Both the position numbers and the translations under genes were made by a program. The notes beneath the pieces are model-generated. The model did not search any database and was not told the DNA's origin. It worked only from the letters and a program-made list of their open reading frames with translations. A DNA stretch of 64,000 nucleotides from Dehalogenimonas etheniformans (GTDB lineage Bacteria; Chloroflexota; Dehalococcoidia; Dehalococcoidales; Dehalococcoidaceae). Location: assembly GCF_014672715.2 (NCBI RefSeq), contig NZ_CP058566.2, forward strand, positions 1,240,001 to 1,304,000, written 5' to 3'. Shown one piece after another: positions 43,712 to 61,570 of this stretch. Each line of letters begins with the position of its first letter. Position 1 is the stretch's first letter.

Positions 43712-44511
43712 AGTATTACTTGGAACTTTACCGGCAGCAGTTCCGGGTGACGTTCGCCTCCATGTTCCAGTACCGGGCGGCGCTCCTTATCTGGATGATC
43801 TGGCAGGTCAGCGAACCCCTGGTGCTGCTGATCGTCTGGTCGGTGGTGGCCAATGCCTCCGGCGGCAATGTCGGCGGCTACTCGGCGAGCGGTTTTGCTG
43901 CTTACTACGTGATGTTCATGATCGTCAATCAGTTAACCTATACCTGGATCATGTACGAATTCGAATATCGCATCCGCGAAGGAGGCTTATCAGCCCGTCT
44001 GTTAAAGCCGGTCCACCCCATCCATTCGGATATCGCCGATAATATCTCGTCGAAGCTCATTACTTTCCCGGTCATCCTGGTTATCGCGACCGGCCTGGCT
44101 TTAGCGTTCCATGCCTCGTTTTCATTTACTCCGCTGATGCTCCTTTTAAGCGTGCCGGCGATATTTTTCGCTTTTCTCCTCCGCTTTCTCCTGGAGTGGA
44201 CGCTGTCATTAGCTGCTTTCTGGACTACCCGGGTGGGAGCGGTGAACCAGACCTACTTCATGTTCATCCTGCTCTTCTCCGGTCAACTGGCGCCGCTGAC
44301 CCTCATGCCGTCGGCGATACAGTTCGTCGGGCAAATCCTGCCGTTCTACTGGATGATCGGCTTTCCAGTGCGGTTGCTTTTAGGGCAGTTGTCGACGGGT
44401 GAAGTGTTAGCCGGGATCGGCGTCCAGATCATCTGGGTAGCGCTGGCTCTCGGGCTCGTACGCATTGTCTGGCGTTCCGGGATCAAGATCTATTCGGCGG
44501 TCGGGGCATGA
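43708..44511 (+). CDS. ABC-2 permease 1 (COG4587-like)
   Basis: 267 residues from the GTG at 43708, which overlaps the ATPase stop. Six membrane segments are predicted by eye. SARLLKPVHPIHSDIADNIS is the typical cytoplasmic loop of this family. It should pair with the following permease to form the channel. The much longer open frame starting at 43405 overlaps the ATPase gene and is rejected. Confidence 0.85.
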   Translation: MKYYLELYRQQFRVTFASMFQYRAALLIWMIWQVSEPLVLLIVWSVVANASGGNVGGYSASGFAAYYVMFMIVNQLTYTWIMYEFEYRIREGGLSARLLKPVHPIHSDIADNISSKLITFPVILVIATGLALAFHASFSFTPLMLLLSVPAIFFAFLLRFLLEWTLSLAAFWTTRVGAVNQTYFMFILLFSGQLAPLTLMPSAIQFVGQILPFYWMIGFPVRLLLGQLSTGEVLAGIGVQIIWVALALGLVRIVWRSGIKIYSAVGA

Positions 44512-45293
44512 GATACCTGCGACTGGCTGCCGCATTTTTCCGCATAGCCCTCCTAGGGGAACTGGCCTACCGCGCCAATTTCTGGTGGCGGTTGTTCCAG
44601 TCCATTCTGAACCTCGGTGTCGCCCTGTCAGGTGTTTGGGTCATCTTCTCCTACACCGATAGCCTTGGCGGGTGGAAGCCGGAGGAAGTCGTTGCCCTGG
44701 TCGGCGTCTATCTCCTGGTCGGGGGCATCATGGGGCTTGTCATCCAGCCGGGGATGGAGGAACTCATCGAATCGGTGCGAACCGGGGAGTTGGATTTCAT
44801 CCTGACCAAACCTGAAGACGGCCAGTTGCTAGTCAGTATCCGGCGTTACGATATTTGGGAGATTATCGACTTCTTCCTGGGCGCGGGAGTGCTCGTTGTT
44901 GCTCTGACTCGTCTCGGCAGCCAGATCGGTTTAATTCAAGCCACGGAATTCATCCTGCTACTGCTATGCGGGGGCATCATCGTCTATTGTTTCTGGCTGA
45001 TGTTGTCTTCGCTCTCATTTTGGCTGGTGCGCGTGGAGAACATCCTGGTGATCTTCCAGAGCCTGTATGAAGCCGGCCGTTGGCCGATAAGCCTCTACCC
45101 CGGCTGGCTGCGATACGGGCTGACCTTCATCATCCCGGTGGCTTTTGCCGTGACCGTTCCCGCCGAAGCCCTTACAGGAAGGCTGAACTGGCCGACCGTT
45201 GCCGGAGCAGCAACTCTAGCAGTCGGTTTATTTATCCTTTCGAGGATCATCTGGAAGGCGGGTATGAGAAGATACTCAGGCGCTTCGGCTTAA
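44508..45293 (+). CDS. ABC-2 permease 2 (COG3694-like)
   Basis: 261 residues, six membrane segments. SVRTGELDFILTKPEDGQLL is the loop motif of this permease type. The ATG overlaps the stop of permease 1 (ATGA). The gene ends 43 bases before the first radical SAM enzyme, and that short gap contains an extended -10 box. The ABC genes and the radical SAM genes may therefore be one operon with an internal promoter. Confidence 0.85.
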   Translation: MRYLRLAAAFFRIALLGELAYRANFWWRLFQSILNLGVALSGVWVIFSYTDSLGGWKPEEVVALVGVYLLVGGIMGLVIQPGMEELIESVRTGELDFILTKPEDGQLLVSIRRYDIWEIIDFFLGAGVLVVALTRLGSQIGLIQATEFILLLLCGGIIVYCFWLMLSSLSFWLVRVENILVIFQSLYEAGRWPISLYPGWLRYGLTFIIPVAFAVTVPAEALTGRLNWPTVAGAATLAVGLFILSRIIWKAGMRRYSGASA

Positions 45294-45336: not shown

Positions 45337-47472
45337 ATGAAAGTCCTGCTGATTTTCCCACCGCAATTTACACCTTTTCGTCCGCACCTGGGTTTACCCT
45401 CGATCACCGCTTATTTGAGATCACATCAAATTGAGGTCACGCAACGTGATCTCAACGTAGAAACTTACGACCTGATTCTGTCGAAGGAATATCTTCTAAG
45501 CCTGAAGGCGATTCTGGCAGAGCGGTTCAAGGCGCTGGACTCCAGGGCACAACTATCGCCCTCATCCCAGAAATATTATAACGACCTTTTCATCGCCACC
45601 GCATCGCTGGCACACGTGGCGGCGAAGGTCGAGGGCGCGAAGGAAATACTGCGTAGTAAAGGCGCGGATTTTTATGATCCGGGGGTGCTTTTCAAGGCCA
45701 GGCAAATCCTTGAACAGGCTTTAGCAATTGTTTCGATTGCCCATTTGCCCACTACTATCGGTTTCGAATCGCTAGAGATCCCTTCGTTTGATAATACTTT
45801 TGAGGGAATACAATTCTCCACCAACGATAATGAACATAATCCCTTTTTGGGAATTTTTGTTGACCGGATCGTATCGGAGTTAATTAAAAGCAAACCAGAT
45901 GTGATCGGAATTTCCGTAACGAGCCGCAGTCAGCTCATTTCCTCATTCACGCTTTCACGATTGTTGAAAAAGGCTCTGCCAAAAACTCATATCGTGTTCG
46001 GCGGAAACATCGTTACCCTGCTGGCTGATTCTTTTAAGAAAAATGAAAGATTGTTTGAGGAATTCCTCGACAGCGCGGTCCTCTATGAAGGTGAAAAACC
46101 GATGCTCGCTCTGGTGGAGCATATCCGGGACCGACTTCCTCTGAATGATGTTCCTAATCTTATTTACCGCGATGAAACGGGAGTAAAGACTACCGGGAGG
46201 TGCCTCCCGGAGCCCATCGACTCCCTGCCCACCCCGGATTTCGATGGCCTTCCTTTGAAACTTTATCTCAGTCCTGAGCCGGTCCTGCCGCTTTTAGCAT
46301 CGCGAGGTTGCTACTGGACCAAATGTGCCTTCTGTTCCCAAAACTTCGGTTTTGGCGAATGCTATCACAAAAGGAATACTCACCTCGTGGTCGAGGACAT
46401 CAGAAAACTATCCGCAAAATACAACACCAGCCAATTTGCCTTCGTTGATGAGGCAATTTCACCCAGTCAAATAGAACTGCTTGCAGACGAGATCATCAAT
46501 ACCGGCTTGAACATCCGTTGTTCAACCAACATCAGGATGGAGAAGCAGTTGAGTTCCCATCTCTGTCAAAGAATCGCAACCTCTGGTTTCAAGATGCTTT
46601 ACCTGGGGCTTGAATCCGGGTCTGACAGGATTCTCCAACTAATGAACAAGGGAATTACCACCGATACGGCACAGACCGTGTGCCGGAATGTGCATGGTGC
46701 CGGCATCTGGAACCACTTGTACGTAATGTTCGGGTTTCCCGGCGAAACAATGCAAGAAGCTCAAGACACTATCAGTTTCTTACTAGATCATAAAAGCACC
46801 ATCAGTTCATTTCACACCGACAATTTCAGCCTCGAACGAGGCATGATAATCGAACGTGAACCGGAACGGTTCGGGGTGACCGTAGAAAAAGACCGCATAA
46901 ATGACTTCTCCATTGCCTACAGCTACAGCCTCAACCGGGGGATTTCATACGTACAAGCTCGGCAATTATCCGACAACACTATGGACGAAGTCGGCACGCA
47001 GTTCGATGGAAACAAGGTGTTGGAACTAATTACTCATTATTACCTACCGCTCTATCTGTCTCATTATGAAGCGAGCGACCCATCATTAATGAACATCAAG
47101 CTCGCGGACAATGCGCCAATTAGACCAGCCAAAGCCCTTAGGCCTGGTTCGATTCCAATCGTAAACACAAGCACCATGATCTGGAGGACGAATTTCGATC
47201 TTATTAACATCAGGCGCCGATTAGGAACAGGGCAGGACACCGAGGTTCTTCCCGAACCAAGCACCATGATGTTTGATTCAGAATCCAAATTAATGGGATC
47301 GATACCGGAACAGGCCATTGAAATCCTGGAATTGTGTAACGGCCGGAGAACGGTGAGAGAGATTGCGTCAATATTAGGGAAGACTTACGATGCTCCGGTT
47401 AATGAGATAGAAAAGGGCGTTTTGATTCTGTTGAATTCATTGGTAAAGAGCGGGTTTATTAAGTTTAAATGA
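45337..47472 (+). CDS. B12-binding radical SAM enzyme with C-terminal PqqD/RRE-like domain, 1
   Basis: 711 residues. An N-terminal cobalamin-binding-type domain (MKVLLIFPPQFTPFRPHLGL, and VIGISVTSRSQLISSF) is followed by a radical SAM core with SRGCYWTKCAFCSQ. Its cluster spacing is CX4CX2C rather than the common CX3CX2C. LGLESGSDRILQLMNKGITT and GFPGETMQEA are further core motifs. The last 75 residues (PEQAIEILELCNGRRTVREI, then GVLILLNSLVKSGFIKF) look like a PqqD-fold or RiPP-recognition element. The enzyme probably methylates or otherwise modifies an unactivated carbon. The substrate is unknown, and a precursor peptide is not visible nearby. The ATGA overlap couples it to its paralogue. 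Confidence 0.82.
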   Translation: MKVLLIFPPQFTPFRPHLGLPSITAYLRSHQIEVTQRDLNVETYDLILSKEYLLSLKAILAERFKALDSRAQLSPSSQKYYNDLFIATASLAHVAAKVEGAKEILRSKGADFYDPGVLFKARQILEQALAIVSIAHLPTTIGFESLEIPSFDNTFEGIQFSTNDNEHNPFLGIFVDRIVSELIKSKPDVIGISVTSRSQLISSFTLSRLLKKALPKTHIVFGGNIVTLLADSFKKNERLFEEFLDSAVLYEGEKPMLALVEHIRDRLPLNDVPNLIYRDETGVKTTGRCLPEPIDSLPTPDFDGLPLKLYLSPEPVLPLLASRGCYWTKCAFCSQNFGFGECYHKRNTHLVVEDIRKLSAKYNTSQFAFVDEAISPSQIELLADEIINTGLNIRCSTNIRMEKQLSSHLCQRIATSGFKMLYLGLESGSDRILQLMNKGITTDTAQTVCRNVHGAGIWNHLYVMFGFPGETMQEAQDTISFLLDHKSTISSFHTDNFSLERGMIIEREPERFGVTVEKDRINDFSIAYSYSLNRGISYVQARQLSDNTMDEVGTQFDGNKVLELITHYYLPLYLSHYEASDPSLMNIKLADNAPIRPAKALRPGSIPIVNTSTMIWRTNFDLINIRRRLGTGQDTEVLPEPSTMMFDSESKLMGSIPEQAIEILELCNGRRTVREIASILGKTYDAPVNEIEKGVLILLNSLVKSGFIKFK

Positions 47473-49634
47473 AGGTGTTGCTAGTTTTTCCGCCCCAGTT
47501 CACCCCGTTTCGGCCTTACGTGGCTGGACCTTCGCTGGTGGCCTACCTCCGCGGCAAGGGGATCGATGCCATCCAGAAAGATGTCAACCTCGAAGTATAC
47601 GAGACCTTTCTATCCGAATCTTATATCAAGGGAATAAAACCGGGTATTGACGCCCGGTTTGCGGCTTTGGAGACAAAAGACCGCCTGAATCCCGGTGATG
47701 AACAGAAACGATACAACAACCTGTTTGTCGCCAGGTCGATCGCCGCCAACATAGCCGAAAATATCCAAACTGCGAAAAAGGTTTTCCACTCCCCCGAGAC
47801 GTTCTTTGATCCGGATGAGCTCGCCAGAGCCCGTGAAACTATCAATCTGGCTTTTTCGGTTATCTCAACCGCCCACCTTCCAACCAGTTTCAGCTTTGCC
47901 CCATTCGAAATGCCGTCTTTCACCGGTTCGTTCGATTCGTTGGAGAAAGTGACCACGGATCGGAGCGAAAATCCGTTCATCGAATATTACGATAGCCACT
48001 TGATGCCCTTCATCGAAGAGCAAAAACCCGATGTCATCGGAATCACCATCGCCTCGCACAGCCAGCTTGTTCCCGCCCTTACACTTTCCCGGATGTTGAA
48101 AACCAGGGCTAACAAGGCACATATCACGGTCGGGGGACATGTATCAACGGTCCTATCTGAGGTGATTTCCCGGCACACTGAGCTGTTCCGGGACTTTTTC
48201 GATAGCGTCATCCTTAACGAAGGCGAACTACCCCTGCTGCGCCTGGTTGAGTGTTTATCTAAAGGCGAATCACTCCAGACAGTGCCGAATTTGATGTACC
48301 TTAGTGATGGCGCTGTGCAAATCACAGAAATGCTCCCGCCGGTTGATATCAACGATTTACCTACACCCTGTTTCGACGGTTTGGATCTGGATAGCTATTT
48401 CGGTCCGGAACCGGTTGTGCCCCTATTATCTTCGAGAGGATGCTACTGGAACAAATGCGCCTTCTGCGGACACGGGCTGGGCTGGGGAGGCGCTTATCAA
48501 CTCCGGGATACCCAAAAGGTTATCGATGACGTCCAGACCTTATCCCACAAGCATGGAGCCCGCCATTTCGCCTTTTGCGACGAGGGCATATCGCCCCATT
48601 CGATTAGAAATCTTTCAGATAAGATCATCGAACGAGGATTAGATATCAGATGTTCAACCAACATCCGGTTGGAAAAACAATTTACCCAGGAACTCTGTCA
48701 AAAGATCGCTCGAGCCGGTTTCCGGATGTTGTCGCTGGGTCTTGAATCAAGCTGCGACCGCGTCCTGAATCTGATGTCCAAGGGGACGACCGAAGCCGTT
48801 GCGACTGAAGTATGCCGGAATGTCTACGATGCCGGGATCTGGAACCACGTCTATTTTATGCTCGGCTTCCCGGGAGAAACGTACAACGAAGCCAAGCAGA
48901 CCATCGATTTTCTAGCCGGTGGGAGGGGCTTCATTCGTTCATTTTATGTCGAAAATTTCGGGCTGGGTAAAGGTTCTATTATCTATAAACATCCCGAGGA
49001 TTTTGGCATTACCGTAACGAACGATGGACCTGAGAACGAATTCCTTCTGGTTTCCGATTACACAGTGTCATCTGGGCTGACATATGATCAAGCCAGGGAA
49101 CTGGCCCAGTACTGCATGACCACGGTGGCCGATTCCTACGACTCAACAAGGCTCCTGGATAGCATCGGCTATCGTTACGATAAAGATTTTGCCCTGCCGC
49201 TTTACCTCTGCCGTTTTGAGGAGAGCGACCCGTTGCTTAAGTCGCTGACGGCTAAACTTAACGCTCCTCACGCTGCTGCAACTGCCGTTAGGCTGAATCG
49301 GAGATCAACTCCCAGTTTGCGAAATGGCGTCGTATTTGACAATACAAATTTCAACCTTGCCGAGGTGCGACAGAACCTGGCGGCGGACACAAAGCTGCCC
49401 GTGTACCCGGTACGAACACAGGTGCTGGTTGACACCCATTCGGGGAATCTTGCGGCTTTGCCGGAAGCCGGAATGGAACTAGTCCGGTTATGCGATGGCA
49501 GGAGCACCCTGAAGCAAATTGTTCAAACCTTAGCCGAAAAATACCAGGCCAGATTCGAGAGCATTGAACAGGACTGCATCACCTTCCTTGAGGCCATAGC
49601 GCAACAGGGATTCGTAGAAATTCCTGTTCGTTGA
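47469..49634 (+). CDS. B12-binding radical SAM enzyme with C-terminal PqqD/RRE-like domain, 2
   Basis: 721 residues, a paralogue of the preceding protein over its whole length. The N-terminus MKVLLVFPPQFTPFRPYVAG, the cluster motif SRGCYWNKCAFCGH (CX4CX2C), MLGFPGETYNEAKQ, and the tail MELVRLCDGRSTLKQIVQTL with ITFLEAIAQQGFVEI all correspond. Its start codon overlaps the first gene's stop. Two linked paralogues suggest sequential or heterodimeric action on the same substrate. The gene ends at a terminator shared with the convergent rdhA. Alternative substrates include lipids or small molecules, as in other B12-radical SAM families. Confidence 0.82.
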   Translation: MKVLLVFPPQFTPFRPYVAGPSLVAYLRGKGIDAIQKDVNLEVYETFLSESYIKGIKPGIDARFAALETKDRLNPGDEQKRYNNLFVARSIAANIAENIQTAKKVFHSPETFFDPDELARARETINLAFSVISTAHLPTSFSFAPFEMPSFTGSFDSLEKVTTDRSENPFIEYYDSHLMPFIEEQKPDVIGITIASHSQLVPALTLSRMLKTRANKAHITVGGHVSTVLSEVISRHTELFRDFFDSVILNEGELPLLRLVECLSKGESLQTVPNLMYLSDGAVQITEMLPPVDINDLPTPCFDGLDLDSYFGPEPVVPLLSSRGCYWNKCAFCGHGLGWGGAYQLRDTQKVIDDVQTLSHKHGARHFAFCDEGISPHSIRNLSDKIIERGLDIRCSTNIRLEKQFTQELCQKIARAGFRMLSLGLESSCDRVLNLMSKGTTEAVATEVCRNVYDAGIWNHVYFMLGFPGETYNEAKQTIDFLAGGRGFIRSFYVENFGLGKGSIIYKHPEDFGITVTNDGPENEFLLVSDYTVSSGLTYDQARELAQYCMTTVADSYDSTRLLDSIGYRYDKDFALPLYLCRFEESDPLLKSLTAKLNAPHAAATAVRLNRRSTPSLRNGVVFDNTNFNLAEVRQNLAADTKLPVYPVRTQVLVDTHSGNLAALPEAGMELVRLCDGRSTLKQIVQTLAEKYQARFESIEQDCITFLEAIAQQGFVEIPVR

Positions 49635-49693: not shown

Positions 49694-51142
49694 TTATTGT
49701 GCGTGTAGCTCACGTGAGCGACCATCTTCGCCATGAGGAGGCGTTTCGGTCTTCCACCAATCCACGCCCTTCGGATTGAAGGTTCCGGTAGGCGGTCCGA
49801 CACCAGCGCTGAATTGCTGCAGGCCATAGCCCATAACTTGATCCATATCCTTGAAGAAGGTGTTGAACACTGGCGTTGTGCCAAGAGTCGCCTTGACAGC
49901 CAGGTGAACAGCTGCTGTCTCCAGATGGGAGAAGACGCAGTTGCCCATACAGATGTTACAACCCCAGACCATGTCCTGATAAGTCTTACAAGTGGCCATG
50001 TTGTTCCAGAACACCTTTTTACCAGGAATTGAATAGATGATATTAGGATCCGTGAGGCTCCTAACATTAAGCGTCGCCGGCGGGTCCCAGGTAGGCTCAT
50101 GTTCGGTGCTATTCGAGCTGCTGGGGCATACCTTAGAGCAATTGGCACAGGTCCAGCAGAACTTCCAGATACCGGCATCGATCGGGTGAGTAGGAGCGAG
50201 AGGCAAGTCGGTCGACAACAGGTTTTGAGTCTGCGTCATGCCATAGGTCGGGCTGATGCTCTGACCTCCAATTCGCCCCTGTTCGCTTTCGCCGCCAAGT
50301 GCCATAAACGGGGGCATGGGACCGATTGAACCGTTAACCCCTTGGTAGCCAATAGCCACCAAGAATCTTTGGCCTGAACTGCGAACTTGGCCATTTCCCC
50401 GATTACCCTGCTCATGAATACCACGAATTAGAGGGCTCGGCGCTGCATAATACGCAGTCAGCATTTCTGGATACATGATAGGAATATGGGTTAATCCGCC
50501 GCTGGGCATAACATTCTTGCTGGCGGCGTTGATATACGCCGTCTGGGTGTCTTCTATGATCACGCCATTGGAGTATGCCAGCTTGTTCGTATTGGCGGTC
50601 TGAGGCACATAGCCGATCTGGTAGGCTCCGAAAGTCCGAAGAGCTGTCCTCAACATGCGAGCGTTCTCTTCGGGAGTGCCTGTATACTTAGGTACTCCCA
50701 AGGATGCAGGGGTATCGGCCGGGATCTGAGTACCCGTCAAAACCCAGGGATTAAGAGCCCCGATAGGCAAACCGACGTTGTTCCTGAAGGCAAAATCTTT
50801 TAGAGTATAACCCGGTTGGTTTTCCGTGATCCATTTCTTTTTGGCGGCTTTTTGATCGATAAGCGCTTGCGCCCAATTGGGATCATATAAGGCGTTGTTG
50901 GATTGGGTGCTCTTGGTAGAATCAAAGCGCTTGACCAGGGTCCAGTCAATCTCGACGGTAGGATTCTCCAAATCCCGTTCTTTTATCCACCAGGGTTTTT
51001 TCGGATTAGCCATATCTCCGCTGGCGGTCATTTCGTCTAGATCATGAAAAACCGGGGCGGTTAGAGCGGCAGCGCCAACGCCAGCCAAACCCAGGGTCTT
51101 CATGAACGACCGGCGGCTCATCGTACTGTGAAAAACTGACAT
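49694..51142 (-). CDS. rdhA: Reductive dehalogenase catalytic subunit, 1
   Basis: 482 residues. A Tat signal (MSRRSFMKTLGLAGVGAAAL) directs folded export. Two Fe-S cluster motifs lie in the C-terminal third: CWTCANCSKVCPS and C-x9-CNICMGNCVF. No membrane anchor is fused. The family uses a corrinoid cofactor to remove halogens from organohalides as terminal respiratory step. The substrate cannot be told. No rdhB follows, and the flanking genes are another rdhA and a convergent gene. AAAGGAG precedes the ATG, and the shared leader motif lies 37 bases upstream. It is the last gene of the minus-strand run. Confidence 0.93.
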   Translation of the reverse strand: MSVFHSTMSRRSFMKTLGLAGVGAAALTAPVFHDLDEMTASGDMANPKKPWWIKERDLENPTVEIDWTLVKRFDSTKSTQSNNALYDPNWAQALIDQKAAKKKWITENQPGYTLKDFAFRNNVGLPIGALNPWVLTGTQIPADTPASLGVPKYTGTPEENARMLRTALRTFGAYQIGYVPQTANTNKLAYSNGVIIEDTQTAYINAASKNVMPSGGLTHIPIMYPEMLTAYYAAPSPLIRGIHEQGNRGNGQVRSSGQRFLVAIGYQGVNGSIGPMPPFMALGGESEQGRIGGQSISPTYGMTQTQNLLSTDLPLAPTHPIDAGIWKFCWTCANCSKVCPSSSNSTEHEPTWDPPATLNVRSLTDPNIIYSIPGKKVFWNNMATCKTYQDMVWGCNICMGNCVFSHLETAAVHLAVKATLGTTPVFNTFFKDMDQVMGYGLQQFSAGVGPPTGTFNPKGVDWWKTETPPHGEDGRSRELHAQ

Positions 51143-51179
51143 AAATTTCTCCTTTCCTAATCGCGACTTTTGGGTCTAT

Positions 51180-51206
51180 TTCCCAACGTTATACGGTCTT
51201 TCCCGG
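51180..51206 (-). promoter_or_regulatory. rdhA leader motif, copy 1
   Basis: On the minus strand CCGGGAAAGACCG, ten variable bases, and GGGAA. Copies of the same motif lie at similar distance ahead of the other two rdhA genes. Confidence 0.6.
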
Positions 51207-51279
51207 ATGCCAATATTCAAAGTAAGCTCCTTACGTTTAACACTCCAAGGGTTGGAAAAGCGCGTTAGATCTTAATATT

Positions 51280-51325
51280 CCAAAAAAGCCACGGGGGTTC
51301 CTTGGGAGGAACCCCCGTTTTGCCT
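51280..51325 (-). terminator. Terminator after rdhA 2
   Basis: GGGGGTTCCTCC and GGAACCCCC form a strong stem (51299-51319), with a T-rich tail on the minus strand. It lies 36 bases past the rdhA 2 stop and 140 bases upstream of rdhA 1, so rdhA 1 probably has its own promoter or depends on read-through. Confidence 0.75.
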
Positions 51326-51360
51326 TTACTTCGACATAGTCTCTTGTCGTACGGTTGGAT

Positions 51361-52812
51361 TTACTGGGCGTGTGCTTGAGTGGCGCGTCCGTCCCAACCA
51401 AAGGGTGGAGTCTCAATCATCCACCACTCCGCCGCGGCAGGATTGAATGTACCATTGAGGGGCGGGCTGATACCGGGGCCAAACTGTTGTAGACCGTATC
51501 CCATGACCCGGTCCATGTCCTTAAAGAAGGTATTAAAGGTCGGAGTCGAACCCAGGGTAGCCTTGACCATGATGTGCACGGCGGCTGTCTCAAGGTGAGA
51601 GAATACGCAGTTGGCCATACAAACGTTACAACCGCCACCGCACAAATCGCAGTGAGTTTTGCAGGTGGACATGTTGTTGAAGAAAACCTTTTTCCCGGGA
51701 ACCGAGAATTGCGCATCTGGATTGGAAAAACTCTGAGCGAAGGTCGGGACTTCCCAGCTCGGTATTTTATCTGTATTAATCGATTCACTCGGACAAACTA
51801 TGGCACAATTGCCGCAGGTATGGCAGAATTTCCAGATACCAGCGTCGATCGGATGTGTCGGATCAATCGGCAAATCAGTCGAGAGCCCGTTGTGTGTCTG
51901 GGTCATACCGTATGTCGGGCTGATAGATTGTCCACCGATGCGTCCCATTTCGCTGCCGCCACCTAGAGGGAAGAAAGCCGGACCGCATCCGATGGATCCG
52001 CTTAAACCCTGGTAGCCAAGAGTGGCTAAGAAACGTTGCCCTGAACTGACCACTACGCCAAGTATTTGATTGCCTTTGCTGTGGGTACCGCGGTTGGTGG
52101 CTGATGGATTCCCTCTGTAACCGGTCAACATTTCCGGAGCCATGAGAGGGATGTAAGTTATGCCGGCTTGGGTCGGAATGACGTTACCCTTCTTGGCGTC
52201 GCTGTAGCCGATTTTGGTGTCTTCCAGTGTGTAACCATTGCTGTAGACGAGTTTCTGAGCATTGGCGGTTAAGGGCACATAGGCCATGCCGAACGCACCG
52301 AAGGTTCTGAGAGCCGTGCGCAACATGCGGGAGTTGTATTCGGGCGTGCCTTCATATTTGGGCACTCCCTGCGCCTCCGGGGATTTAAAAGAGCTGGCAG
52401 CGGGTACCCAGGGGTTCGTGGAGCCTGGCGGGTTACCAATGATATCCCTGAACGCGTAATCTTCGATGCTGAAACCGGGTTTCCGGTCGGTCATCCAAGA
52501 TTTTTTCAGCTCAGCCTCTTTCTTAACGACGTTGCTCCAGTCTTTGTCATAAAGGGCGTTGTTGGACTGGGAGCTGTAGGTGGAGTTATAACGTTTGATC
52601 AACGTCCAGTCGATTTCAACCGTGGGCTTTTCGAAATCGAGTTCCTTGATCCACCAGGGCTTCTTGGGGTTTGCCATGTCTCCGGTTCCGCTGGCAACCA
52701 TCTCGTCCAGATCATGGAAGACAGGCGTGGTAAGAGCAGCAGCCCCGGCGCCGACTAGACCCAGCCCCTTCATGAAATCCCGGCGAGAAACTGTTGAATG
52801 AAATTTCGCCAT
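51361..52812 (-). CDS. rdhA: Reductive dehalogenase catalytic subunit, 2
   Basis: 483 residues from ATG at 52812 (MAKFHSTVSRRDFMKGLGL). The open frame to 52839 adds an implausible charged leader, and AAAGGA precedes 52812. Tat signal SRRDFMKGLGLVGAGAAAL. Cluster motifs CHTCGNCAIVCPS and a second one ending CNVCMANCVF, preceded by two extra cysteines (CKTHCDLC), which the neighbouring copies lack. The body is closely similar to rdhA 1 (for example MANPKKPWWIKE, ALRTFGAF and TYGMTQTHN). No rdhB. Confidence 0.93.
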   Translation of the reverse strand: MAKFHSTVSRRDFMKGLGLVGAGAAALTTPVFHDLDEMVASGTGDMANPKKPWWIKELDFEKPTVEIDWTLIKRYNSTYSSQSNNALYDKDWSNVVKKEAELKKSWMTDRKPGFSIEDYAFRDIIGNPPGSTNPWVPAASSFKSPEAQGVPKYEGTPEYNSRMLRTALRTFGAFGMAYVPLTANAQKLVYSNGYTLEDTKIGYSDAKKGNVIPTQAGITYIPLMAPEMLTGYRGNPSATNRGTHSKGNQILGVVVSSGQRFLATLGYQGLSGSIGCGPAFFPLGGGSEMGRIGGQSISPTYGMTQTHNGLSTDLPIDPTHPIDAGIWKFCHTCGNCAIVCPSESINTDKIPSWEVPTFAQSFSNPDAQFSVPGKKVFFNNMSTCKTHCDLCGGGCNVCMANCVFSHLETAAVHIMVKATLGSTPTFNTFFKDMDRVMGYGLQQFGPGISPPLNGTFNPAAAEWWMIETPPFGWDGRATQAHAQ

Positions 52813-52851
52813 TTTGTTTTCCTTTCTTCTACGTTCCATTTGGTTGTTCAG

Positions 52852-52876
52852 TTCCCAGTGCTCCGGTCTTTCCCGG
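52852..52876 (-). promoter_or_regulatory. rdhA leader motif, copy 2
   Basis: On the minus strand CCGGGAAAGACCG, seven bases, and CTGGGAA-type end, 39 bases ahead of the rdhA 2 start codon. The first 13 bases match copy 1 exactly. Confidence 0.6.
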
Positions 52877-52948
52877 CGGTCAAGGATTCATAATTTCTCC
52901 TTTAAAGGCATCAAGTTCTTCAAGATTCAATAATCGTTGCCTTCAGGT

Positions 52949-54376
52949 TCATTGTGCGTCTGGTGCGAAAAACCGTTTTTCTGCCCCATTGGGCGCAAGT
53001 TCCCATGTCCACCACTCAACCGCGGTCTCATTAAACGTTCCGGTCGGTGGGCCAATTCCAGCCTTGAATTGCTGGTTACCATACCCAAAAGCCTTATCCA
53101 TCGTAGCGAAAAAGCCATCGAACAAGGGTGTATTGGCAATTATCGTCTTCACCGTATTGTGAATCATCGAGCTATCCATCTTGGAGAAAACGCAGCTGGC
53201 AATACAGGTGTTACACCGTGATATGGAAATGCTATAACTTCTGCACGTGGAAGCATTGAACCAGAACGCCTTTTTGCCAGGATTTGAGAATTGGGCGGTA
53301 TTGCCTGGAAGCTTGCTAAAGACATAATCCGGCAGGTCCCAAGTTGGCTCAGGGTCTGTAGGAATAGAAGAACTTGGGCAAACATCTGCACAATTCGCAC
53401 ATTTGCAACAAAATTTTGCGATGCCGGCGTCTATGGGGTGGGTCGGCGCTAAAGGAAGGTTAGTTACCAAGGTATCCGTACCGACACCGATACCGTAGCT
53501 GGCACTGATCAGACCGCCGCCGGTACGAGCAATCTCGCCTCCTCCAGCCAGGGTGCTGAAGGCTGGAGCGGGTCCGATTCCGCCATTCAAGCCGTCATAA
53601 CCCAACGCAGCTAGAAAACGGGAACCGGTGCTACTAGCCTGTCCCTTCAACCTGTTTTGCAGGTTATTTCCAGCATGTCCCAGGACACTCGGGGTGACCA
53701 TAAGAGATGTGATAGGTGTTACAGACGTAACCGGGATAACAGTCATACCGGAGTTGGGAATAACACTTCCCTTCTTGGGATCTGAATAACCGGTCGGAGT
53801 GTCTTCAAACGTAAACCCGTTACTAAATACCAGGTTCTTGGTGTTTGAAGTCAGCGGGACATACCCAACTAAGGCGGCACCTGCAAACCTGAGAGCCGAT
53901 CTCACGATCCGGGCGTTGTCTTCAGGCGTACCACTATACTTCGGTACGCCTAGCTTTTCCGGTGTTGTGGCAGATGGCACCCAGGGAGCAGATGACCCGG
54001 TCGGCAATCCGATTGTATCGTTCAACGCATTATCTTTAAGGGTGCAACCGGGACTATCATCAAGCATCCATTTTTTCCGGCTCTCTATTGCTTGGGTAAC
54101 CACATTTGGATAATTGGTATCATAGAACTGGTTACTTGAGTTGGCGGAGTTTTTTGAGTTAAATCGCTTGATCTGGGTCCAATCCAACTCCATGGTCGGA
54201 TTTTCCAGCTCCCTCTCCTTTACAAACCACGGCTTTTTGGGATTACCCATATCAGCCGCGGCCATGTCATCCAGATCGTGGAAGACGGGTGTGGTTAAGG
54301 CTGCTGCACCCGCCCCAACCATTCCCAGGGCTTTCATGAAATCCCTTCTACTTACTGTTGAGTGAAACTTGGACAT
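52949..54376 (-). CDS. rdhA: Reductive dehalogenase catalytic subunit, 3
   Basis: 475 residues. Tat signal SRRDFMKALGMVGAGAAAL. Cluster motifs CCKCANCADVCPS and CRSYSISISRCNTCIASCVF. It is more diverged from copies 1 and 2 (about the same length, with several small replacements such as TSNTKNLVFSNG). It is the first rdhA in the minus-strand run, 94 bases after a B12-binding radical SAM gene. No rdhB is present. The three tandem paralogues could act on different organohalides. Confidence 0.93.
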   Translation of the reverse strand: MSKFHSTVSRRDFMKALGMVGAGAAALTTPVFHDLDDMAAADMGNPKKPWFVKERELENPTMELDWTQIKRFNSKNSANSSNQFYDTNYPNVVTQAIESRKKWMLDDSPGCTLKDNALNDTIGLPTGSSAPWVPSATTPEKLGVPKYSGTPEDNARIVRSALRFAGAALVGYVPLTSNTKNLVFSNGFTFEDTPTGYSDPKKGSVIPNSGMTVIPVTSVTPITSLMVTPSVLGHAGNNLQNRLKGQASSTGSRFLAALGYDGLNGGIGPAPAFSTLAGGGEIARTGGGLISASYGIGVGTDTLVTNLPLAPTHPIDAGIAKFCCKCANCADVCPSSSIPTDPEPTWDLPDYVFSKLPGNTAQFSNPGKKAFWFNASTCRSYSISISRCNTCIASCVFSKMDSSMIHNTVKTIIANTPLFDGFFATMDKAFGYGNQQFKAGIGPPTGTFNETAVEWWTWELAPNGAEKRFFAPDAQ

Positions 54377-54411
54377 CCCCTTTTTCCCCTTTAAATTATT
54401 ATCTTGGCTTG

Positions 54412-54428
54412 TTCCCAGTCTTTTCCGG
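54412..54428 (-). promoter_or_regulatory. rdhA leader motif, copy 3
   Basis: On the minus strand CCGGAAAAGACTGGGAA, a shorter version lacking the variable middle, 35 bases ahead of the rdhA 3 start. Confidence 0.55.
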
Positions 54429-54470
54429 TGTCAGTTGATCATTCGCCTGACCTCAAGTTCCCGCATTTTG

Positions 54471-55931
54471 TTAAGCCGGTTTCGGTGCCAGTTTGGTATG
54501 GGCTTCTTTAAGACTGGCGGCAAAACCTGCCAGGTGACGCTTAGACTTGACGACATAGATCTGGTTCTTGATGAGACTCCACAGCTCCCTGAAGAACTTC
54601 TTTGGATTGGTGACGATGATCTTGAAATAAGCCGGATCATGTTTCAGGGTAAAGCGGAAGCGGTTGACCGCATAAGTATTGAGGTAGTGGGTGAGCGCGT
54701 TATTGATAAGCTCATCCGGCACCTCGCTCAAATTGATCTTGTTGGAGTACTGCATCATGTACTCCGGCCATTCCCCCAGCTTCTGCGGAGGAGTGATCAA
54801 CTTGTGATCGACGCAGTAATCAAAGAGCTTAGTGCCCGGCAGAGGCCGGAAGCGGTTATATAGGTAATAGGGTCTATCGAGCCGCTCCAGCAGGCGATGG
54901 GTGGCCATGAAGTCCTCGGTCGTCTCGGTCGGGAAACCATGCATGATATAGAGCGAGGCGCGGATCTTGTACTTCACCAACAGCCAGAATGTCTTGACCA
55001 TTTGGTCCACGGTGATGCCCTTCTGGACGAAATCCAGCATCCGCTGGGAGCCGGTTTCAAAGCCCAAAGTCACCGAGACGCAGCCAGACTTGGCCATCAT
55101 TACCGCGTCTTCCTCCGACAGGTCGGCCCGGCAGTCGCAACTCCAGGTGAGCTTGATCTTCTTTTCCTTTAAGAGGCGGCAGAAGTCCCGCAGGCGCTTT
55201 CGGTTGAATGTAAAATTGTCATCATTAAATCGAATGTGCTTGGCGCCGTAGGTCTGTTGCAGGTGTTCGATCTGGGACACCAACCGCTCGGCGGAAAGAT
55301 AGCCGAGTGAGCCCTTATTGAAGGAATCGTTGTAACAGAAAGCGCAGTGGAAAGCGCAGCCCCGGCTGGTGTTGAGGTCGAGTTCTCGATATTTGGCGGC
55401 ATCCACCAGGTGCCAGGCTGGGTCAGGCAGTTCGTCCATGTTCTTGGTGAGAAACCGGGGTTCGTTCTTGACGACCTTACCACCTAACTTGAAGGCCAGT
55501 CCCTTGATCTCTTCGATTTTTGGGGTTCCGGTTTGCAGATGGTCAGCCAGTTCGGCCATGGTGTATTCCCCGGCGCCGATGACGGCATAATCGACATAGT
55601 CTTCAGCCAGGGTTTGTTCGGTAAGCACGCTCGGGCTGACGTTTCCCCAGACTATCCTGGCATTCGGCAGCAGGTTCCTGAATTCCTTGGACATATGGAT
55701 GGCGCCTTCCATATTGGGACCGACGATGACCGAAAAGCCGATAAGGTCCGGTTTGAATGCCGCCAGTTCTTCCGTGGTCCGGTCGTCCATGAAGCCGTCG
55801 TAGACCATTACCTCATGCCCGTGTTTCTCAAGCATGGCGCCGATGAATAGGAGCCCGTTCGGAAGATTGGAAGAGTTTGCAAAAGCGCGTTTGAAGGCGG
55901 GGGTGGTGGCGGCGACGAGAAGTACTTTCAT
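54471..55931 (-). CDS. B12-binding radical SAM enzyme upstream of the rdhA genes
   Basis: 486 residues. The N-terminal Rossmann-type half starts MKVLLVAATTPAFKRAFANS and has LIGFSVIVGPNMEGAIHM. It lacks the DxHxxG signature, so cobalamin would bind without a His lower ligand. The radical SAM core has SRGCAFHCAFCYN (CX3CX2C), GFETGSQRMLDFVQKGITV and MHGFPTETTEDF. The C-terminus is basic and helical. Related enzymes methylate sp2 or sp3 carbons in lipids, antibiotics and hopanoids. Its place 94 bases ahead of rdhA 3, in the same direction, suggests a shared operon. The link to dehalogenation is untested inference. Confidence 0.85.
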   Translation of the reverse strand: MKVLLVAATTPAFKRAFANSSNLPNGLLFIGAMLEKHGHEVMVYDGFMDDRTTEELAAFKPDLIGFSVIVGPNMEGAIHMSKEFRNLLPNARIVWGNVSPSVLTEQTLAEDYVDYAVIGAGEYTMAELADHLQTGTPKIEEIKGLAFKLGGKVVKNEPRFLTKNMDELPDPAWHLVDAAKYRELDLNTSRGCAFHCAFCYNDSFNKGSLGYLSAERLVSQIEHLQQTYGAKHIRFNDDNFTFNRKRLRDFCRLLKEKKIKLTWSCDCRADLSEEDAVMMAKSGCVSVTLGFETGSQRMLDFVQKGITVDQMVKTFWLLVKYKIRASLYIMHGFPTETTEDFMATHRLLERLDRPYYLYNRFRPLPGTKLFDYCVDHKLITPPQKLGEWPEYMMQYSNKINLSEVPDELINNALTHYLNTYAVNRFRFTLKHDPAYFKIIVTNPKKFFRELWSLIKNQIYVVKSKRHLAGFAASLKEAHTKLAPKPA

Positions 55932-55958
55932 ATATTCTCCAAATTCTTTCCAGTGGAG

Positions 55959-56774
55959 CTAGGCGGCAACCATTTCCCTGGTCTCTATGGCGGGCTGTAA
56001 CTCAGGGGCATCTAACTCGGCTTCGGTGGGGAAGATGCTCTTAACGTTGTATTCCAGTAGCTCAGTGCCCTTAAAGCAGTGAACATTGGTCAAGTGCTTG
56101 GAAGCGGCTGCCACGGCTTCTTCAATCTCTTCAGCCGTCGGTTTGCGCCATGGGTTGTGCCCAACCCGGGAGTATGCATCGATCTGGTATCGCATGTTTT
56201 TATCGATTCCGGCGATAAACTTAGCGATTTTTCCGATCTCCGGCGCATCGATGTATCCGGGGATGACGACTGACTCGGCCATCATCGGTACACCGCTTCG
56301 GTAGATACTTTCAAAGTTATGTAAGATTGCCCTGTTGGACTCGCCGGTATAATCGATGTGGAGTTTTTCATCTAATGCCTTCAGTCCGACAACCACCCTG
56401 TCAATATCGGTCAGGTTAGGCATGTGAAAGGCATTGGTCAGGAGGTAATTGGTCGTGCCCAGCTCGCGATGGAGGGTTTTGGCGATAATCGGCATAGCTG
56501 GGTCGAGGGAGGCTTCTTGCCCTTCAAGGAGCACCGATTTTACATTCAGGCCGATAAGAGTCTTGACGGCGGTATCCAGATCCATAAAACGCGTCGGCGG
56601 GGCCGTTACGCCTTTCGGATCAAGCATATGAATCTTAGCGTTGCGATCCAGCATCGCGTCATAGACCATCTTCTTGCAAATGCAGCCTTTGCACCGGATA
56701 TTGCAGCCCCAGAAATGGATGTAGGCTTGCTTGGTGGATTCGGCAAAGGCGATGTTATATATATTGGTCTGCAT
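55959..56774 (-). CDS. Small radical SAM enzyme (activase-like)
   Basis: 271 residues from ATG at 56774 (an in-frame GTG precedes it). The cluster motif CNIRCKGC (CX3CX2C) comes early, as in glycyl-radical activating enzymes, with SVLLEGQEASLDPAMP for the usual GGE region and VIPGYIDAPEIGKIAKFI further on. A C-terminal helical tail of about 40 residues is extra. No glycyl-radical enzyme is nearby. AACGAGG lies ahead of the start. It is the first gene of the minus-strand run to rdhA and ends 27 bases before the B12-radical SAM gene. Confidence 0.8.
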   Translation of the reverse strand: MQTNIYNIAFAESTKQAYIHFWGCNIRCKGCICKKMVYDAMLDRNAKIHMLDPKGVTAPPTRFMDLDTAVKTLIGLNVKSVLLEGQEASLDPAMPIIAKTLHRELGTTNYLLTNAFHMPNLTDIDRVVVGLKALDEKLHIDYTGESNRAILHNFESIYRSGVPMMAESVVIPGYIDAPEIGKIAKFIAGIDKNMRYQIDAYSRVGHNPWRKPTAEEIEEAVAAASKHLTNVHCFKGTELLEYNVKSIFPTEAELDAPELQPAIETREMVAA

Positions 56775-56816
56775 CACAACCTCGTTATTTCGAAAGGGGA
56801 AGAAGGTCTTTGTATT

Positions 56817-58900: not shown

Positions 58901-61570
58901 CTAAATAACCCGTTGTTTGCGTCTTCTCCAAAACATCACAAAGCCGCCGAGCACGATCCCGGTTCCCAGAACTGCGAAGATGGAATTAACTACCCCCTGC
59001 CGGGGTTTTTCAAGAATGTCTGCGTTCAACGCCGGAGGAATGCAAACGTAATTGTTCGCGTCCAGCCCGGTTAAAGATAATCCGGAAATGACGACTGATT
59101 TGCCAACACCCACTTCGCTGTTATCAAAACTTCCTGCCACTTCAAACGTTACCAGGCTTGCTGCATCTGAACCAACCAACCCCGAAAGAGTGGCGGTGCT
59201 GACATCTACTTTGCAATCCGTCGTGCCATCGAACGTTTTATTCTGCGCCGCCACCCCTATCACAGTTACAGGCTTCGGCAGTATCCAGCCTTCCGCAGAA
59301 AAGAATGAATAATCGTAATTTTTACCGTCATTGCCATCCAGTATGACTCCGCTGGGAATCAGTTGCTTCCCTGTACCTGCGTTCTTGTTGTCGAAATTCT
59401 GGTTGAATTTATACTCGCTATCGCCAAAGCCCAGATCGGTCAGAACCAGGGGATTACCTGTGGATGAGGTGGTCCCGTCATACGTCTTGGAATCTGACAC
59501 CGCGGCCACAGACACAGGCTTTTTGATGATCTCTCCGGTTGAGACGCTGATAAAGGTACAGGCGTAATTTGCCCCGCCGTTACCGTCAACAACCGCACCG
59601 AACGGCGTCAGTGTCTTAGCCGCGCCCGCGTTCCGGTTATCGTATGATTGTTTGAACGACCAGATATCTCCCACCGAAACCGGTTGAGACGTTTTCGGAG
59701 TCGCAGATGAAGTATTGGTGCCGTCGTAGACTTTAGAATCCGGGACAGCAAAGATGCTGATAGGAAGCTTGTCCACGACGCCGGTGGTATCATTCCGGTA
59801 GGTGTAGGAATAATTCTCACCATCGTTGCCATCGTCGACTCTGCCGGACGCGAATATGGTCTTATTGGTACCTGCATTCTTGTCAGCAAATTGCTGGGTG
59901 AAAGAATCAGAGTCGCCTTGCGCCAGACCTGGGAAAACTGAAGGCGCGGCGCTTGAAAACCCCGTACCATCGTACATTTTTCTGTCGGGGCTGGCAATAA
60001 TCGTGATCGCCAGTTTATCGATCTGGCCTGAAGTCACGGATAAAAAGGTGTAAGAATAATTTGCGCCATTATTCCCGTCCGCGATCACACCGGCAGGTGT
60101 CAACTTTTTGCAGGTGCCAACATTCCGGTTGTCGAAAGTCTGAGAGAAAGCCGGCGTATCACCCTCCATCGCGGGTGCGGAAAGCGTCGGTATCCCGGAT
60201 GAAAGAACTCTTCCGTCATAAGTCTTGAAATCAGCCACTGCGGAAATCGTGACCGGCAATTTTTGAATTTCACCGGTAGCCGCGCTTATGAAAGTCGCGT
60301 CATAGTTGTTGCCGTTGTTGCCATCATTGACGGCTCCGGCGGGGATTAATGTCTTGCCTGTGCCGGCATTCCGATCATCGAAAATCTGGCGGAACGAATG
60401 GGTTGTATCCCCAGTCGCCAGCCCGATCGACAGGGAGGGAATTTTCGATGATGACACGGTGCCGTCATACGTCTTCGTGTCGGTGAGCGAGCTGACGGTG
60501 ATCGGCAGTTTCGTAATCCCACCGGTGGCGTCGATGAAGGTGTATGCATAGTTGCGGCCGCCATTTCCGTCATTGACAATGCCGGAAGGAGTCAGTGATT
60601 TGACGGCACCCGCGTTCCGGTTATCGAAAGTCTGGATAAAAGAATCATTCATGTCACCAGCAGCCAGCGGGATTGATAAAGACGGGGTCGCGTTCGACAA
60701 GGTGGTGCCATCATAGGTTTTAGTATCGGGCACGGCGGTTACGATGATTGGCAGTGGAGCGATATCGGCGGTAATGATCGGGTTGATGTAATAGCCGGAG
60801 GCATCATCGCCACCCAGGCTCAAACCAGAAACCGTTATCGGCTTCCCCGTTCCAATGTTACGATCGTTGAAGGTACCCGATGGGTTTGACATCAACAGGC
60901 TGACATCGTCGCCAGGTTCAACACCGATCAGACCGGGACTATCAATTTGGAGTCCTGCTCCAGTGGTGCCGTCGTACATCTTATTATCACTGGAAATTCC
61001 AGTAACGGTTAGTTCCTTGATCACATTGAATGTGTCAATTGTAAGATCACCGTACAAAAGTCGGGTTGAGTCGAAGTTGGTGCCCTGAATAATGAAACCC
61101 CATTGGTAACCATTGTTTACGTGAATGGTTAAAACACCGCTGCCCCCGGCATCGCCATAGGTGTTGGCCGAATATAAAGTCCCTTGAACACGACCACCCG
61201 GACTATCGGCAAAGACAAAGAGACGCGCTTGAGCTGCATACCAGGAATGCATGCAATGGTAATTCCAATTGAAGCTAACATTGGCACTTGCCGACACAGT
61301 ATTGGTGACGTTCCAGGTTTGTCAGCTGAAAGGAGCGCTACGCAGAAGATACGTAAACGTGAGACCTTCAGTGCCGCCAGTTGAAGAGTCGATGGTTTTC
61401 GTTCCCGGGCCGGATGACTGCCAGTGTTCGGGTTCGTAGGAACTGGGCAGTTCAGCGGCAGAGATTGGTGTAAGTGTAAGAATGAACAAGCCTGCAGCCG
61501 CGATACCTCCAGCCCCGAGGAGGCGTTTCAAGGTGATAAATGACCGGCCGAATTTAGACAGAAGTTTCAT
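58901..61570 (-). pseudogene. YDG-repeat cell-surface protein with an in-frame TGA
   Basis: From ATG at 61570 the frame encodes a signal segment (KRLLGAGGIAAAGLFILTLTP, shown in part) and about 80 residues to a TGA at 61322-61324. In the same frame it continues as QTWNVTNTVSASANVSFNW for another 800 residues. Eight YDG-type motifs (YDGTT, YDGTV, YDGRV, YDGTG, YDGTN, FDGTT) recur about every 75-80 residues, the MBG/YDG-like fold. The end has a membrane helix (VVNSIFAVLGTGIVLGGFVM) and RRRKQR, a surface anchor. No LPxTG is seen. TGA falls where Trp would suit. Either a nonsense mutation or a readthrough stop explains it. The N-terminal fragment alone would be useless. Confidence 0.78.

Follow-up and report, generated by a model that had tools for sequence, protein, structure and literature searches.

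Introduction

The stretch of DNA considered here raises the question of why two genes coding for radical S-adenosylmethionine (SAM) proteins, a small one (RS1) and a B12-binding one (RS2), immediately precede three rdhA (reductive dehalogenase) genes in Dehalogenimonas etheniformans, a bacterium that lives by dehalogenation. The strain GP of this species has a genome of 2.07 Mb harbouring 52 rdhA homologues (PMC13390414). The window, i.e., the whole stretch of 64,000 nucleotides that was analysed (contig NZ_CP058566.2, positions 1,240,001 to 1,304,000), lies within a single contig of 2,068,322 bases, in which 51 RdhA open reading frames (ORFs) were counted. The linkage of the radical SAM pair with rdhA is real and recurrent, and the best reading of the data is that a corrinoid represents the common denominator of both partners, the maturation of the RdhA protein being a weaker candidate.

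Genomes of Dehalogenimonas contain dozens of rdhA and very few rdhB genes, and the task of the orphan rdhA is an open question (PMC13390414, PMC4918011). Should a definable subset of rdhA genes prove to be associated with a radical SAM pair, this subset would gain a testable biochemical partner, and should the pair tailor a cofactor for RdhAs which are not dehalogenases, part of the rdhB-less rdhA stock of Dehalogenimonas would have a different job. Within the wider class, an RS1-type enzyme from cobamide salvage operons would, in addition, represent a missing step in the cofactor conditioning by corrinoid-auxotrophic dechlorinators, a process relevant to bioremediation.

Linkage of the radical SAM pair with rdhA genes

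According to the ORF calls, RS1, RS2, RdhA1, RdhA2 and RdhA3 follow one another in this order on the minus strand of the window, and their families were verified by Pfam and NCBIfam searches (PF04055 for RS1, PF02310 and PF04055 for RS2, TIGR02486 for the three RdhAs), as the first-pass annotation had read them from the letters. The gaps of 27, 94, about 136 and about 218 bases it reported were also recovered, as 27 bp between RS1 and RS2, 94 bp between RS2 and RdhA1, 218 bp between RdhA2 and RdhA3 and, between RdhA1 and RdhA2, either 109 bp or, with the later RdhA2 start at MAKFHS, 136 bp. Similarly, neither the membrane-anchor gene rdhB nor a gene for MarR or a two-component system occurs in the five-gene run or adjoining it, in agreement with the absence noted earlier. 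The last gap contains a terminator-like hairpin with a G+C-rich stem (RNA fold of -28.2 kcal/mol, z -4.0), so that rdhA3 may form a separate or attenuated unit and the five genes are perhaps not a single one.

The recurrence of this arrangement was assessed in eight members of the genus, three genomes of the Dehalococcoides type and several class members further removed, by examining the surroundings of almost every copy of RS1 and RS2. ORFs were called by a simple rule, neighbours were labelled by clustering and Pfam, and same-strand runs were defined by gaps of 500 bp or less. The genome of D. etheniformans contains 14 copies of RS1 and 14 of RS2. Nine of the RS2 copies are located within 3 kb of an rdhA gene, for 1.7 expected from circular shifts of this genome (p 0.0016), and seven of the RS1 copies, for 1.6 expected (p 0.0046). 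Sixteen times, over eight Dehalogenimonas-like genomes, RS1 is directly followed by RS2 at a spacing of -4 to +27 bp. Among the 48 same-strand runs containing RS1, 20 also contain RS2 and 28 do not; rdhA is found in 16 of the former (once only as a remnant) and in 9 of the latter, a contrast with a Fisher p of 0.0014, uncorrected for shared ancestry.

The closest counterparts of the window are the orthologous clusters RS1-RS2-RdhA-RdhA-lipoprotein-RS34 (RS34 standing for homologues of RS3/RS4, see below) of two relatives, G003 (locus L045) and G006 (L057), whose proteins share 77-79% identity with RdhA1 and 80-82% with RS2. RS1, RS2 and RdhA are under strong purifying selection, their nonsynonymous divergence being low and their synonymous divergence at or close to saturation; dN/dS amounts to 0.05-0.16 in the comparisons that allow dS to be measured. 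At another locus, L031, an RS1-RS2-RS2-RS2 run is accompanied only by a C-terminal rdhA remnant (73% identity over 45 residues); because nothing but this end remains, the radical SAM genes have evidently outlived their rdhA. Most rdhA genes of the genome are devoid of a radical SAM pair as neighbour. No paper connecting radical SAM genes with rdhA loci was found in the open literature, subscription literature not being covered, and the linkage is thus undescribed as far as the open literature shows.

Corrinoid uptake and salvage context

Compared across relatives, as the first-pass annotation had proposed, the link between the pair and rdhA proves to be conserved. The outcome is nevertheless mixed, for both families are also encountered at loci without rdhA, where most of the copies adjoin genes of corrinoid uptake and salvage. 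Twenty of the 28 RS1 runs devoid of RS2 hold CbiZ, CbiB, CobO, BtuF, BtuC or a tetrapyrrole methylase. In two members of the class (G094 and G190), btuF and btuC flank RS1, and in a third genome (G031), RS1 is followed by a cobalamin riboswitch and then by btuFCD-cbiZ-cbiB; none of these three genomes contains an RdhA over the family cut-off. RS2, for its part, adjoins a CbiZ gene (PF01955) in all eight members of the genus. RS1 occurs in btu operons of genomes without RdhA and RS2 beside CbiZ in all eight; each family thus has its own association with corrinoid salvage, separate from the other family and from RdhA. Outside the family, the co-presence of RS1 and CbiZ points in the same direction (3/4 versus 6/46 genomes, p 0.016).

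In many genomes, the Dehalococcoidia cobamide uptake and salvage locus (btuFCD-cbiZ-cbiB-cobD), which corresponds to HX448_06240-06295 (PMC13390414), either starts with a relative of RS1 or has one further inside. In contrast to this locus, the window run contains neither a salvage enzyme nor a riboswitch: the location of the RS1 family in btu/cbi operons is conserved, but the window copy itself lies outside such an operon. A search for a cobalamin riboswitch upstream of the run, covering the window and seven other loci of the genome, gave none; that of G031 is located downstream of RS1.

Two operons (L083:7524-11397 and L037:5204-9076) contain 3-4 RS1 paralogues each, either arrayed in tandem or alternating with a tetrapyrrole methylase and CbiZ, that of L083 coming after an rdhA-rdhB pair.

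The radical SAM proteins RS1 and RS2

RS1 exhibits a CX3CX2C motif formed by C25, C29 and C32, and its predicted model (pLDDT 92.6) superimposes best, among solved structures, on the pyruvate formate-lyase (PFL) activating enzyme with a Z of 22.3 over 214 residues (rmsd 2.7). The match to the PFL-activase fold is not specific, since NifB is also matched with a Z of 18.1, and the identity with both proteins is 17-23%. An ordinary glycyl-radical activase was considered for RS1 and rejected, as the best activase equivalog scores 43.5 bits for a cut-off of 430. In the alignment, invariant residues span the copies linked to btu and salvage genes as well as those linked to rdhA, which suggests one chemistry across the RS1 family. 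Among the genomes sampled, this family is nearly confined to the Dehalococcoidia; outside the class, a search of the phylum gave partial or distant matches only.

RS2 exceeds the cut-offs of both PF02310 and PF04055 and displays the motif C192-C196-C199. The best curated match is BchE (TIGR02026), the anaerobic Mg-protoporphyrin monomethyl ester cyclase, which shares the B12-binding and radical SAM architecture of RS2; the score of 153.7 bits lies below the equivalog cut-off of 481.35. As the organism is no phototroph, RS2 is unlikely to share the substrate of BchE. In the comparison with Mmp10 and the McrA glutamine C-methyltransferase, RS2 matches TIGR04014 with 86 bits, for a cut-off of 360.

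A divergent RS2 paralogue occurs at L044:3913-5301 in G003 and at G007:C1:1649949-1651337. The G003 copy has lost cysteines of the CX3CX2C motif (RGGLYACTFF) and probably no longer functions as a radical SAM enzyme.

The RdhA homologues

The three RdhAs score 219.9, 199.7 and 205.9 bits with TIGR02486 (cut-off of 160.35), and RdhA1 is predicted to adopt the PceA fold. RdhA3 is probably a duplicate of RdhA2, with which it shares 64% identity. The twin-arginine translocation (Tat) RR motif and all eight cysteines of the two C-terminal iron-sulphur (Fe-S) motifs are invariant in their clade. The Tat signal, the two Fe-S motifs, the PceA fold and the membership of TIGR02486 are shared with the rdhAB operons of organohalide-respiring Dehalococcoidia (e.g., cerAB, dcpAB, tdrAB). 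In contrast to these operons, the window run lacks rdhB, two-component and MarR genes, has a radical SAM pair in front, and codes for proteins in whose active site the Tyr and the Arg have been lost. Every functionally characterised rdhA has a downstream rdhB (PMC13390414).

The active sites were compared by aligning 128 RdhAs with PceA as an anchor. The position of PceA Tyr246, occupied by Tyr in 88 of the 128, is occupied by Asn in RdhA1-3, and the active-site Arg/Lys (PceA Arg305) is also replaced in all three (Table 1). The loss of Arg305 is weak evidence when taken alone, because Gly is also common at this position in RdhAs which keep the Tyr. Tyr246 is described as strongly conserved, and NpRdhA becomes inactive when the equivalent residue is mutated (PMC5500849). 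Owing to the loss of both residues, an ordinary dehalogenation by RdhA1-3 seems doubtful.

A class-wide search recovered eight proteins of this Asn-type clade, in four genomes, all of them encoded beside RS1 and RS2; a scan of the collection for a wider spread of the window clade gave only relatives of 29-35% identity, the seventh match being restricted to the signal region. Loss of the Tyr is common also without radical SAM neighbours; 18 of the 49 RdhAs of this genome that were compared are devoid of the residue. Whether its loss marks a linkage with radical SAM genes was tested, and no such claim is made: in the pooled genomes the Tyr is lacking in 18/30 RdhAs at 1 kb or less versus 22/98 others (p 2e-4), with a p of 0.26 in the genome of D. 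etheniformans itself.

A possible role in corrinoid tailoring

The first-pass annotation had raised the idea, from gene position, that the radical SAM enzymes mature RdhA, its corrinoid or a related molecule. The corrinoid part of this idea gains from the salvage neighbourhoods, and the maturation of RdhA comes out weaker. The reading that is tentatively preferred here, somewhat short of an even chance, is that RS1 and RS2 may tailor a salvaged corrinoid, or a remodelling intermediate, which would be delivered to the co-encoded, divergent RdhA-like subfamily. The corrinoid is favoured over the RdhA protein because RS1 and RS2 adjoin salvage genes, RS1 even in genomes without RdhA. The tetrapyrrole enzyme BchE as best curated match of RS2 and the tight RS1-RS2 spacing also speak for this reading.

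From the gene order, its recurrence, the corrinoid neighbourhoods and the residue losses, we infer the following biochemical steps. The window run would be a member of a recurrent Dehalogenimonas module, in which RS1 and RS2 form one translationally tight unit. RS1, RS2 and at least rdhA1-rdhA2 are likely co-transcribed, in view of the gaps of 27, 94 and about 110-136 bp on one strand and of the same order with similarly short gaps in two relatives; the hairpin may cut off rdhA3. The CX3CX2C cluster of RS1 would generate a 5'-deoxyadenosyl radical, as its motif and fold suggest, and the shared invariant residues indicate that its chemistry could be that of the relatives residing in corrinoid uptake and salvage operons. 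The RdhA-like proteins would be exported by the Tat pathway with two Fe-S clusters, in keeping with their motifs and predicted fold, and presumably with a corrinoid; having lost the Tyr and Arg, they probably perform no standard dehalogenation.

Several points weigh against corrinoid tailoring. Salvage genes occur in none of the 20 runs combining RS1 and RS2, in contrast to the runs without RS2 (Fisher p 2e-7, uncorrected for shared ancestry), and the riboswitch search of the window and of seven other loci of the genome was negative. The Dehalococcoides-like genomes G008-G010 possess RS1, and RS2 is absent from them at E ≤ 1e-30. Outside the family, the co-presence of RS1 with RdhA is about equally good as that with CbiZ (p 0.015). 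Moreover, 14 plus 14 paralogues in one genome are hardly needed for one cofactor, and the argument proceeds throughout by guilt by association, among gene runs of related genomes that are not independent.

Competing explanations

Among the rivals, the one that survives best, although unlikely, is a specialised small-molecule or peptide pathway resembling that of the ribosomally synthesised and post-translationally modified peptides (RiPPs), in which RS1, RS2, RS3/RS4 and sometimes a further radical SAM enzyme would make a product exported by ABC-2 permeases, the RdhA-like proteins serving as reductases of the pathway instead of respiratory dehalogenases. RS3 and RS4, two B12-binding radical SAM proteins encoded on the opposite strand, end about 60 bp from rdhA3. 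In G003 and G006, the rdhA genes are succeeded by an RS4 orthologue of like orientation, RS3/RS4 orthologues stand in the matching cluster of G003, G006 and L031, and RS34 homologues are placed no more than about 1 kb from rdhA in Dehalococcoides-like genomes and at other loci. RS3/RS4 are members of the conserved cluster. Their PqqD domain, their resemblance to RiPP C-methyltransferases, the further radical SAM gene (c23) occurring at L031, L044, L051, L063 and L069, and RdhAs without the catalytic Tyr and Arg all suit such a pathway, and the adjacent ABC-2 permease is a possible export partner of RS3/RS4. However, RS3 and RS4 match the RiPP C-methyltransferase family TIGR03975 with only 124.5 and 114.4 bits, below the cut-off of 281.85, no conserved short ORF for a precursor peptide occurs at the six junctions examined (distant precursors were not sought), the 130-138 amino acid ORF of the G003 and G006 clusters resembles a lipoprotein, and RS34 homologues also stand near Tyr-bearing rdhA genes in Dehalococcoides-like genomes.

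It is rather unlikely that the radical SAM genes are mere passengers of rdh-rich regions, carried along without shared function by the repeated duplication and transfer of rdhA segments. The numerous and often duplicated rdhA genes, the many paralogues of RS1 and RS2 and the RS2 genes that stand alone agree with such a carriage, but the RS1-RS2 order recurs with near-zero spacing at many separate loci, the adjacency to rdhA exceeds the circular-shift expectation, and strong purifying selection acts on RS1, RS2 and RdhA.

A post-translational modification of the RdhA proteins by RS1 and RS2, e.g., a C-methylation of active-site residues, is quite unlikely, even though a modified residue might replace the lost Tyr. 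Its working model is provided by B12 radical SAM enzymes with another enzyme as target, such as Mmp10, which acts by C-methylation on methyl-coenzyme M reductase, and the McrA glutamine C-methyltransferase; no modification of RdhA is known here. The close association of the RS1-RS2 unit with rdhA, the eight of eight Asn-type RdhAs encoded beside it and the many paralogues, which suit substrate-specific maturases, speak for this explanation. It is opposed by the presence of both families beside corrinoid genes, and of RS1 in genomes devoid of RdhA, by the persistence of RS1 and three RS2 genes at L031 next to a mere rdhA remnant, and by the majority of rdhA genes lacking such a neighbour.

Finally, it is improbable that the pair performs an unrecognised corrinoid-tailoring step yielding a modified cobamide for an exported RdhA-like subfamily that, devoid of the dehalogenase Tyr and Arg, would catalyse another corrinoid-dependent reduction.

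Features of the window and additional observations

Table 1. Position of the five-gene run and of its neighbours in the window.
Feature	Position	Strand	Remarks
RS1, 272-aa radical SAM protein	55959..56777	-	CX3CX2C motif; PFL-activase/NifB-like predicted fold
RS2, 486-aa B12-binding and radical SAM protein	54471..55931	-	CX3CX2C; nearest curated family BchE, below cut-off
RdhA1, RdhA homologue	52949..54376	-	Tat signal, two Fe-S motifs; Asn at Tyr246, Gly at Arg305
RdhA2, RdhA homologue	51361..52839	-	Asn at Tyr246, Thr at Arg305; possible start 52812 (MAKFHS)
Terminator-like hairpin, rdhA2/rdhA3 gap	51291..51318	-	12 bp stem, then GGCUUUUUU on the coding strand
RdhA3, RdhA homologue	49694..51142	-	Asn at Tyr246, Thr at Arg305
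RS4, 721-aa B12-binding radical SAM protein, C-terminal PqqD-like domain	47469..49634	+	convergent with rdhA3
RS3, 711-aa RS4 paralogue	45337..47472	+	4-bp overlap with RS4
ABC-2 type permease (PF06182)	44508..45293	+	directly upstream of RS3

PqqD-fused B12 radical SAM genes are located within about 1 kb of rdhA at G009:C1:1278672-1280780, G008:C1:28129-30240 and G000:C1:1819334-1821448. The active-site Tyr is retained in the two of these rdhA genes that were checked. In G009, the radical SAM gene and rdhA have a MarR-like gene between them.

About ten ribonucleotide reductase-like proteins (PF02867) are encoded in the genome of D. etheniformans, often beside RS1, rdhA and corrinoid genes, and examples of the family occur at G000:C1:241711-243522, 355276-357096, 1183516-1185300 and 341923-343719 and at L083:11401-13158. 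The linked copies display an S/T-G-C-G-E or D-P-C-G-G motif where class II reductases usually have N-P-C-G-E, and in view of this departure they may not be ordinary reductases. At two loci belonging to two genomes (L168:4826-10475 and L089:6271-12066), a Fur-family regulator and a znuABC-like metal transporter are followed by RS1 and a reductase-like gene, which hints at a metal link. Small PP-loop proteins of the Diphthami_syn_2 family (PF01902) are similarly found beside RS1, RS2 and reductase-like genes (L034:3684-4412, L038:12664-13455, L083:6772-7527).

Elsewhere in the window, a minus-strand ORF of 798 residues (58901-61297), comprising about eight imperfect repeats of the KTYDGTTxSSxxPSL type and a C-terminal hydrophobic segment, probably codes for a surface repeat protein.

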